A DNA stretch of 18,066 nucleotides from positions 1 through 18,066 of the forward strand of contig DTTG01000242.1 in assembly GCA_012964845.1 (NCBI GenBank). Direction: 5' to 3'. The notes under the pieces are model-generated. The model worked only from the letters and a program-made list of their open reading frames with translations, had not been told where the DNA came from and ran no database searches. This DNA comes from Fidelibacterota bacterium (lineage in GTDB: Bacteria; Fidelibacterota; Marinisomatia; SCGC-AAA003-L08; D37C17). Each line of letters opens with the position of its first letter. Position 1 is the stretch's first letter. A program made the translations under genes and the position numbers. Shown one piece after another: positions 7,998-10,189 of this stretch.

Positions 7998-9097
7998 ATA
8001 TTCGCTCCTATCCCAATGATTATCTAATCTTGGGTGCAATCTTATTGCTCTCCGGTTTTGGGATTGTCATGATGTATAGTGCCAGCAGTATCTATGCTAT
8101 GAACGAATATGATGATTATCTATATTTCTTTCTTCGACAGACTAGATGGCTCATAATTGGTACCGTTCTCATGTTTTTATTTAGTCAGATGAATTACCGC
8201 CATTTAAAAGAATTAGCTTATGTTCTCATATTTTTTTCATGGATTTTTTTGATTATGGGATATTTTTTCAAGGGCAATAATCCTGCATCCCGCTGGTTAG
8301 TTTTAGGAGGCAGAAGCTGGATGACCACCTCTGATTTTGCACGGGTGAGTCTTATTATTTTTACAGCTTACTTTGTAGAGAAAAATAAAAAATATCTGAA
8401 AGACTGGAAGTTTCTGCTCTTTCGATTTACTCCAATATTGGGGATATCACTGGTGTTGATTCTATTTCAACCGGATACCAGTACCACCATGATTATTGCT
8501 GCCATTATAATGGTAATGCTGTTTATTGCCGGAACAGATTGGCGTTATCTCACAGGTTTATCAATTGCGGGAGTCATTGCTCTTATTTTAAAAATAATGA
8601 ATACTCCCCATGCTATGGATCGATTCCTTAATTGGAATGATAAACAAAAGGTGCAGTCACTAAATGCATTGGGTACGGGTGGAATTTTAGGCAGTGGACT
8701 GGGTGACAGCATTATAAAAAATGGCTATCTCCCGGAAGCACATACCGATTTTATCCTTCCCATTGTTGGGGAAGAGCTGGGATTTATTGGAATCTTCATT
8801 TTATTTTTTCTATTTTGGTTTCTCTTTACAAAAGGACTCACAGTGGTGAGGGAAGCGCCCGATTTGTTCAGCATGTTTTTATCTTTCGGTATTCTTATTT
8901 CTGTCATGATTTATTTTTTGGTTAATGCCGCCTATGTGGTGGGATTTGCCCCAACTACTGGCCTTCCCATGCCCTTTATCTCTTATGGCGGCTCACATAC
9001 CATATTCACTTTTTTGTCCATGGGGATACTGCTGAATATTGCCCGAAAAGGAAGAACTGGAACCAACAGTTATTATAGAGGATTTACGTATGAGTAA
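7994..9097 (+). CDS. ftsW: Lipid II polymerase FtsW (SEDS family)
   Basis: FtsW is a SEDS-family peptidoglycan glycosyltransferase that polymerises lipid II at the septum with FtsI. The 367-residue polytopic protein begins NIRSYPNDYLILGAILLLSG, with FGIVMMYSASS just after, matching the first membrane helix of the family. It ends with the conserved PTTGLPMPFISYGGS block and a final helix. The only start that fits is TTG at 7994, which overlaps the murD stop (TTGA) and has GGAG at 7982-7985 eight bases upstream. FtsW is preferred over RodA because the gene sits between murD and murG in a dcw cluster. The last 8 bases overlap the murG start. Confidence 0.94.
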   Translation: MNIRSYPNDYLILGAILLLSGFGIVMMYSASSIYAMNEYDDYLYFFLRQTRWLIIGTVLMFLFSQMNYRHLKELAYVLIFFSWIFLIMGYFFKGNNPASRWLVLGGRSWMTTSDFARVSLIIFTAYFVEKNKKYLKDWKFLLFRFTPILGISLVLILFQPDTSTTMIIAAIIMVMLFIAGTDWRYLTGLSIAGVIALILKIMNTPHAMDRFLNWNDKQKVQSLNALGTGGILGSGLGDSIIKNGYLPEAHTDFILPIVGEELGFIGIFILFFLFWFLFTKGLTVVREAPDLFSMFLSFGILISVMIYFLVNAAYVVGFAPTTGLPMPFISYGGSHTIFTFLSMGILLNIARKGRTGTNSYYRGFTYE

Positions 9098-9617
9098 AAA
9101 TCTCCGTATGGTAGTTACTGGCGGTGGTACTGGTGGACATTTCTTTCCAGCAATGGCAATACGGAATGCGCTGCAGGAAAAGGGAGTGGAAGTAAAATAT
9201 ATTGGTTCTAAATTTGGCGTTGAAGCCACCCGGTTTTCAAATAATAGTGAGAATGAATTACTTCTGAATATTCGCGGAATTCAACGGCAATTGAATTTGA
9301 ATTCAATAGTGAAAAACATTCTTTTCCCATTTAGATTTTTACAGTCTTATTATCAATCATGGAAATTACTCCATGACTTTAAGCCACATGTGGTAATTGG
9401 GACGGGTGGATATTCATCCGGGCTTCCACTATTAGCTGCTATTCATAAAGGAATTAAAACGGTAATCCAGGAACAGAATTCATACCCAGGAATAACTACC
9501 CGGTATTTAGCTACTAGAGTTGATGCTATCTGCATCGCCTACATAGATGCTGAAGCTCATTTGAAAAAAAAAATCCAATTTTCACCGGAAATCCCGTTCG
9601 AAAGGATATACAGATAA
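9090..9617 (+). CDS. murG: MurG (lipid II synthase), N-terminal half, 5' of an apparent -1 frameshift
   Basis: MurG transfers GlcNAc from UDP-GlcNAc to lipid I on the inner membrane face, forming lipid II. This frame holds the complete acceptor-side domain: the glycine-rich loop GGGTGGH (11-17, with the family's conserved His at 17), GTGGYSSGLPLLAA, and IQEQNSYPGITTRYLA. The ATG at 9090, just inside ftsW, gives MSKNLRMVVTGGG; an in-frame ATG 51 bases earlier lies wholly in ftsW and was not used. The frame is lost after Leu158-Lys161 at a ten-A run. Read straight on, it adds 14 non-family residues (IQFSPEIPFERIYR) and stops at 9615-9617. Shifted -1 within the A run, it continues NPIFTGNPVRKD, the expected MurG linker. 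This is therefore the first part of one gene, not a complete protein. Confidence 0.93.
   Translation: MSKNLRMVVTGGGTGGHFFPAMAIRNALQEKGVEVKYIGSKFGVEATRFSNNSENELLLNIRGIQRQLNLNSIVKNILFPFRFLQSYYQSWKLLHDFKPHVVIGTGGYSSGLPLLAAIHKGIKTVIQEQNSYPGITTRYLATRVDAICIAYIDAEAHLKKKIQFSPEIPFERIYR
9564..9573 (+). other. A10 homopolymer at the murG frame break (candidate slippage site)
   Basis: Ten consecutive A residues follow the codon TTG (Leu158). It is the longest single-base run I see in the window, and it lies exactly where the MurG reading frame must move -1 for TGNPVR to be read. Runs of nine or more A can support RNA polymerase slippage, and A-AAA-AAA is a classic heptamer for -1 ribosomal slippage on Lys codons. 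A weak AT-rich inverted repeat (ATTTTC, loop ACC, GGAAAT, 9578-9592, with one G-U pair) begins four bases downstream. No strong Shine-Dalgarno-like stimulator is visible just upstream. A sequencing or assembly miscount of this run (true length 8 or 11) would also explain the break. Confidence 0.6.
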
Positions 9618-10189
9618 TGGATAAATCCCAGGCAAAACAAAAATTTAACTGCAAGGAATCCCTGCCCGTATTGGCCATTTTAGGTGGAAGTCAGGGGTCG
9701 GTACCTTTGAATCGTCATTTTCAAAAAGAATGTAAAAAATATACCCAATCTGGAATTCAAATACTTTGGCAATGCGGTAAAAATGATTATGAACGCCTAC
9801 ACCATTCCGTGGATGAAGCAGATGTGCATTTAATTCCATTTTCAGATGATATGGGTGCCTTATATTCAGCCGCGGATTTGATTGTCTCCCGTGCAGGTGC
9901 TTTGGCATTATCAGAAATGGCGCTCATGGGTAAGGCAATGGTGCTGGTTCCCTTCCCTCATTCTGCAGGGGATCATCAATTTAAAAATGCTCAGGCATTT
10001 TCTAACTCGGGTGCAGCGGTAGTCTTGCCTCAGTCAAAATTGCCATCCGGTGATTTAGAAACAACCGTATTAGAATTATTCAAGCAGCCTGAAAAAATTC
10101 AGGAAATGGAAAAGCAATCCATTCAAATGGCAGCACCTGATGCAACTGAAAATATTATTTCAACGATAATGGAGATAGCAATCAGCTGA
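9572..10189 (+). CDS. murG: MurG (lipid II synthase), C-terminal half, 3' of an apparent -1 frameshift
   Basis: This frame carries the UDP-GlcNAc-binding domain: TGNPVRKD right after the A run, LAILGGSQGSVPLN, WQCGKNDY, PFSDDMGALYSAADLIVSRA, GALALSEMALMGKAM and PFPHSAGDHQFKNAQ. All core donor-site blocks are present without further breaks. Joined to the upstream frame by a -1 shift in the A tract (9564-9573), the product is 366 residues, the normal MurG length. A separate start is conceivable at ATG 9617 (190 residues; AAAGGA at 9601-9606 lies ten bases upstream, and the ATG overlaps the upstream TAA). That start would omit TGNPVR, which argues against it being the designed start. The stop shares one base with the murC ATG. 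Confidence 0.92.
   Translation, partial: NPIFTGNPVRKDIQIMDKSQAKQKFNCKESLPVLAILGGSQGSVPLNRHFQKECKKYTQSGIQILWQCGKNDYERLHHSVDEADVHLIPFSDDMGALYSAADLIVSRAGALALSEMALMGKAMVLVPFPHSAGDHQFKNAQAFSNSGAAVVLPQSKLPSGDLETTVLELFKQPEKIQEMEKQSIQMAAPDATENIISTIMEIAIS

Follow-up and report, generated by a model that had tools for sequence, protein, structure and literature searches.

The murG gene of a Fidelibacterota bacterium, carried on the 18,066-nucleotide stretch of DNA analysed here (contig DTTG01000242.1, hereafter the window), is broken by a -1 shift at ten consecutive A's, a break shared by its whole genus and by many other genera of the phylum. Judged from the sequence, murG is here a recoded gene, and damage is not the cause of the break. 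We consider it probable that slippage of RNA polymerase on the A10 run makes the fused MurG, and that ribosomes restart at an ATG on the unslipped mRNAs.

The gene occupies positions 9090-10189, between ftsW and murC as in the dcw cluster, and both GT28 domains are present. Residues 1-161 of MurG are encoded in frame 0, from the ATG at 9090 to the third AAA codon (9570-9572) of the A10 run at 9564-9573. Past the run, frame 0 stays open until the TAA at 9615-9617, and TGNPVR and the C-terminal MurG domain can be read in the -1 frame only, from 9572 to the stop at 10187-10189. The first part matched PF03033 (107.9 bits) and the second PF04101 (139 bits), and the read-through MurG aligned with the solved MurG structures 3s2u and 1f0k over almost its entire length. 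The initial annotation, made from this DNA alone, had proposed a -1 split of murG at the A10 and a TGNPVR motif readable only after a frame change within the run, and the frames and Pfam domains on either side bear out both proposals. Its statements that the other genes of the cluster are intact and that neither half of murG carries a further lesion hold as well: ftsL to ftsZ are open within the window, and coding periodicity is present on both sides of the run. It made no mention of an ATG in the -1 frame overlapping the frame-0 stop. The features of the locus are as follows.

9090..9617, + strand: frame-0 murG ORF with the N-terminal domain (9090-9572), a 14-residue out-of-frame tail and TAA (9615-9617); from the frames and PF03033
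9564..9573, + strand: A10 slippery run in the context TTG AAA AAA AAA ATC; at the equal position in 37 broken murG genes
9572..9616, + strand: -1-frame stretch NPIFTGNPVRKDIQI, which would be read only in the fused protein; the -1 frame is open and constraint tracks it
9601..9607, + strand: SD-like AAAGGAT, nine bases 5' of the -1-frame ATG; from the sequence, with a pairing energy of -3.8 kcal/mol in this genome
9615..9619, + strand: TAATG, in which the frame-0 stop (9615-9617) overlaps the -1-frame ATG (9617-9619), a putative restart site; from the sequence
9617..10189, + strand: ORF in the -1 frame that holds the whole C-terminal MurG domain; from PF04101
10187..10191, + strand: TGATG, in which the murG stop overlaps the murC ATG; from the sequence

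The peptide across the junction of the fused MurG would be KKKNPIFTGNPVR; the tail in frame 0 includes IQFSPEIPFER, and a separate C part would begin with MDKSQAK.

The A10 run and the identical break are present in 6/6 genomes of the genus, i.e., in the window's genome and five others, whose C-terminal parts are 54-93% identical to that of the window. The initial annotation had suggested comparison with related genomes as a check and had named a homopolymer miscount in the assembly as the competing explanation. All five congeners keep the A10 and the break, which contradicts a miscount; since four of the five are the GenBank assemblies behind L032-L035 and come from four different projects, a shared assembly error is not credible.

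Of the 245 Neomarinimicrobiota (Fidelibacterota) genomes surveyed, 223 had a murG match, and in at least 37 of these, from 16 genera and 10 families, murG is broken at an A run. The break site is identical in all 37 (Leu-Lys-Lys-Lys codons), the shift is always to -1 (37/37), and the run is A9 in nine genes, A10 in 26 and A11 in two. Broken genes were chosen by short open frames that were not plainly contig ends, and their DNA was then read; 64 of the 223 genomes, with frames absent from the first listing, were searched twice, and short frames at contig ends in G041, G045, G047, G066 and G086 were left unjudged. As this selection would pass over any broken gene whose open frame happens to be long, 37 is a minimum. 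On a MurG tree of 86 rows, the broken or intact state changes about 10 times, with gains and losses pooled, and at least eight of the changes fall on strongly supported branches; according to the tree program, the grouping of f24 with f25 is possibly spurious. Run length and frame are constant inside every broken genus with at least two members (e.g., 6/6 in both g1 and g43) other than g32, where G103 is broken with A9 and its sister G104 is in frame with A10, one A apart. Since the same break recurs in so many related genera, these organisms probably depend on copying slips for the whole enzyme.

Intact murG genes with an A9-A10 run in frame at the same site were found at L061 (G104), L063 (G126), L064 (G127) and L072 (G194). 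The gene at L084 (G082) has a frame change and stops without an A run, probably through damage or sequencing error, and the continuous murG of the single 2.79-Mb contig G043:C1 sits on a long branch of the tree. Left out of the 87-locus set were L084, L085 and L086, the last two because an N part was not found, L036, which is from another phylum, and the duplicates L001, L002 and L032-L035. The short L059 was excluded from the tree; the tests of start codon, SD and structure were run without L005, L031, L059, L060 and L095, whose motif could not be located. The intact comparison loci were hand-picked across genera and are thus non-random.

A second intact murG elsewhere, which according to the initial annotation would make this copy a pseudogene, was looked for by PF04101 and found in none of the 37 broken genomes. 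The window's own genome (1.25 Mb in 251 contigs, 77% complete) has one PF04101 match, as do 36 of the 37 altogether; G003 has a second, weaker match, which by eye looks like a different glycosyltransferase and was rejected as a murG copy. When the N half was searched against 5.8 billion proteins, 890 matches were obtained, of which the best 120 were examined. Their identity reaches 97%, and 112 of them carry KKK close to the C terminus, in most cases with another 12-14 residues behind it; P0014 instead has RKK, and the site is not shown in seven. One N half, P0111, is on record as a 'hypothetical protein'. The A run in the P0014 protein cluster, a broken N half with RKK, may be under nine, which would favour the ribosome. 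Among the matches listed for the read-through query, a search that scored only the 8000 candidates sharing most words, the closest uninterrupted MurG was P0121 (73% identical); it reads LKNN and therefore has no Lys run at the site.

To see which reading is under selection, we counted variable columns by codon position in the 11 broken genera with at least two members. Frame-0 third positions dominate 5' of the run (41, 30 and 178 variable columns). From the run to the frame-0 stop, a middle segment set at 30-45 nt that hence extends past the stop where the stop is close, 57 variable columns fall on third positions of the -1 frame versus 25 and 11 on the others, and further downstream the corresponding numbers are 143 versus 53 and 33. 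Pairwise codon differences in the middle segment, for which pairs are not independent, were 152 synonymous and 89 nonsynonymous in the -1 frame versus 39 and 209 in frame 0; g68 ran against the trend (0 and 6) and g43 was weak (42 and 50). Because codon-position constraint changes frame at the A run, we conclude that the fused protein is selected. In 29 of the 33 genes with a possible restart codon, GNP lies 5' of that codon, so that in most genera protein selection on the stretch from the run to the stop requires its translation within the fusion. The four exceptions make up f25 (g67 and g68), in which the possible restart codon lies 5' of GNP, so that selection on GNP gives no proof of fusion there. 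The proposal of the initial annotation that slippage gives a 366-residue MurG is thus supported by selection on the fused reading.

Most broken genes have a start codon at the frame-0 stop. Besides the TAATG of the window, other genera have ATGA, TGATG or GTGA there, or an ATG slightly further downstream. An ATG positioned between -1 and +8 nt relative to the frame-0 stop was present in 29/36 broken versus 7/46 intact genes, the latter scored at a virtual frame-0 stop (p 2e-9, with relatives not independent), and by genus, counted by hand, in 12/16 versus 6/35. SD pairing 5' of the frame-0 stop was stronger in broken than in intact genes (-4.86 versus -2.05 kcal/mol; -5.78 versus -3.00 kcal/mol in a fixed window), and an ATG together with an SD was found in 23/36 broken versus 3/46 intact genes. 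With eight phylogenetically independent pairs, which give little power, the excess of restart codons was significant in none of its three forms, and two of the 36 scored broken genes have no start codon near the stop. The C domain is likely to be made also alone by such a restart, which may serve C-domain synthesis, the flow of ribosomes into murC, or both.

The initial annotation had left open whether the polymerase or the ribosome slips; comparison across genera favours the polymerase without proving it. An A9-A11 run lies at the frame junction in 37/37 broken genes, and none of the broken-gene DNA examined had a run under nine A's. Every one of the 111 Lys codons of the site is AAA, compared with 547 of 791 (69%) elsewhere in the same genes. 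SD pairing 5' of the run was not enriched (-2.12 in broken versus -2.13 kcal/mol in intact genes), and the z-score of downstream structure, from a model without pseudoknots, did not differ significantly (-0.42 in broken versus -0.18 in intact genes, p 0.12). Hairpins upstream of the run can promote polymerase slippage, and these were not enriched in broken versus intact genes either (p 0.49). Programmed -1 ribosomal frameshifting at A AAA AAA, by which the fusion would be made from a faithful mRNA, is in our estimation unlikely. It would agree with the uniform -1 direction, with the A AAA AAA heptamer, which is in frame 0 in 37/37 broken murG genes, with the slightly lower raw downstream folding energy of broken genes (-11.69 versus -9.73, p 0.022) and with P0014, where RKK would retain A AAA AAA. 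However, ribosomal frameshifting should tolerate seven A's or AAG as the last codon, yet the runs are of nine to eleven A's and AAG is absent, and the SD is not in excess and the structure z-score not significant. A length of nine is reported as the point from which A/T runs are selected against in a large proportion of genomes (PMC1088944), and transcription is described as adding A's at the A11 of tssM1, with 20-25% frameshifting (PMC4256274). The constant -1 direction fits the insertion of one A, as at this A11, and is compatible with the ribosome too. Because the broken genes show no clear enrichment of ribosomal stimulators, and the DNA examined no run shorter than nine, we infer that RNA polymerase slippage is the best mechanism.

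It is very unlikely that no fusion is made and that two coupled cistrons provide MurG as a two-piece enzyme like Alg14/Alg13. The split does lie between two Pfam domains, the ATG with SD at the frame-0 stop is concentrated in broken genes, and split relatives have been described (PMC4973528), but the stretch from the run to the stop is constrained in the -1 frame (undecided for f25), all but four of the 33 genes have GNP before the restart codon, and the conserved run would be left without explanation. A homopolymer miscount or other assembly error is hardly conceivable. Although the G082 murG, broken without an A run, looks like a case of damage or error, the same break is found in 37 genomes, four of them from different GenBank projects, short N-half proteins of equal form occur in many public contigs, and the nearest uninterrupted MurG among those scored is 73% identical. 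To the idea of a pseudogene, with wall synthesis lost or performed by another copy, we attach next to no probability, even though the phylum includes members reported to live on foreign muropeptides (PMC11652737). Neither part is otherwise damaged, coding periodicity is seen on both sides, 36 of the 37 broken genomes have one PF04101 match, the window shows the remaining cluster open, and across 20 broken genomes the dcw region contains no comparable break except in murD of g65; conservation across genera contradicts this idea as well. Equally negligible is phase variation, in which replication slippage would toggle MurG between cells: the single A that separates G103 (A9, broken) from G104 (A10, in frame) in g32 could point to it, but frame and run length are constant within the other broken genera with at least two members, and loss of an essential enzyme in the off state would be lethal.

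Under the preferred reading, RNA polymerase would slip on the A10 of murG, and transcripts that gain one A (or lose two) would carry a continuous frame and give the 366-residue MurG. From unslipped mRNAs would come the N-terminal domain followed by a few residues without meaning, and on these mRNAs ribosomes would probably restart at the -1-frame ATG overlapping the frame-0 stop, which would yield the C-terminal domain alone and carry translation on into murC.

With the composition of the window, 0.46 runs of at least ten A's are expected per 18 kb and strand; a lone A10 in such an 18-kb window would not be remarkable by itself. The window's genome has three distinct A>=10 runs versus roughly 64 expected (1.25 Mb, both strands), and as the break is also present in 6/6 genomes of the genus, its position at an A10 exceeds chance. 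Searches for A10 in 14 genomes returned 40 distinct runs (hand count), of which 12 break a frame, 11 in murG and one in murD; the remaining 28, inspected singly, showed no clear frame break. A genome-wide habit of poly-A breaks was therefore ruled out, as frame-breaking A>=10 runs of these genomes are only in murG and murD. L129 was rejected as a frame break, since by eye an adenosine deaminase-like gene begins there; L105 and L113 are a single codon away from the end of an ORF, with a small lost remainder possible. The assemblies of G102 and G188 have no A10 other than the murG run. Of 20 dcw regions from broken genomes, 17 have no A>=9 run on the operon strand besides that of murG; the exceptions are two g65 genomes, in which murD is broken, and G150, which has one more run, in frame. 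For comparison, 11/20 dcw regions with intact murG have no A>=9 run on the operon strand.

In both g65 genomes, murD is broken to -1 at an A10 (L117, L147 in G063, L148 in G062), in the same cluster as the broken murG, and EMSSFQLE can be read only after the shift. An apparent murE break in G100 (L169) coincides with an N-rich stretch and was taken as an assembly problem, and murF flags in dcw regions were taken for cross-hits between Mur ligases. A conserved non-coding stretch contains an A10 or A11 in 6/6 genomes of the genus (L098, L100, L102, L106, L108 and L110), in several of them just 5' of a lipoprotein-like gene; this could be a slippage site near a promoter.

Slippage recoding is already known, also from single genes elsewhere. 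The tssM1 gene of Citrobacter rodentium is described as having, like murG, an A run (A11) before an early stop, with slippage leading to a short and a full-length protein (PMC4256274). However, tssM1 is a secretion gene of one species and a Yersinia relative, whereas murG encodes a core wall enzyme and is affected in 16 genera; the putative restart codon at the stop is a feature of murG, unlike tssM1, and slippage in murG is predicted from the gene sequences. Poly-A breaks rescued by slippage have been described in AT-rich insect symbionts: in Blochmannia and Buchnera, as in murG, otherwise intact and even essential genes are broken in homopolymers and slippage rescue was proposed, but these very AT-rich genomes are reported to have 114-153 coding polyA tracts of at least nine, compared with three A>=10 runs in the window's genome (PMC3017870). 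The dnaX gene of Thermus thermophilus likewise gives two products from one gene by polymerase slippage, at an A9 run, but there the unslipped frame is reported to be the full-length one, whereas in murG it is the short one (PMC1088944). A closer parallel to dnaX is the in-frame A9-A10 murG of G104, G126, G127 and G194, where slippage would yield a short product. In Alg14/Alg13 and EpsE/EpsF, the N- and C-terminal parts of a MurG-type enzyme are separate ORFs; Alg14 and Alg13 are described as homologous to the two MurG parts, and it has been proposed that they arose when murG was duplicated and split (PMC4973528). In contrast to these, the broken murG is still selected as a fusion and sits in the dcw cluster.

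Among the papers listed in searches of the open-access literature on murG, also in connection with Marinimicrobia/SAR406, murD and the dcw cluster, we found no report of such slippage or frameshifting. A text search of PMC1088944, PMC3711429 and the first 300,000 characters of PMC5009743 gave no mention of murG, and the 'murg' matches in PMC8915115 and PMC2585594 were the author name Murgola and not the gene. Recurrent use of slippage of this kind in a core wall gene did not come up in this literature.

A core wall enzyme, normally single-copy, is encoded in broken form in numerous genera of a large phylum from marine and subsurface habitats. Since gene callers record murG in pieces, such genomes may be misjudged as wall-deficient. 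The phylum, Neomarinimicrobiota, now named Fidelibacterota, has already been studied for dependence on foreign muropeptides: its isolate IA91 is described as depending on them, and the class of IA91 is reported to be without peptidoglycan synthesis genes (PMC11652737). It is a tentative and rather doubtful idea that the two forms are deliberate, with slipped mRNAs giving the fused MurG, unslipped ones giving the N and C domains separately by termination and restart, and the ratio setting peptidoglycan output; that murG is a living intermediate between a fused MurG and a split enzyme of the Alg14/Alg13 type; and that the g65 murD reflects slippage control spreading to other wall genes. Dozens of A9-A11 sites exist in nature, and their in-frame sister genes can serve as controls; they offer a way to ask whether slippage is tolerated or used for control, and they may show the path from a fused glycosyltransferase to two subunits, as was proposed for Alg13/Alg14 (PMC4973528).
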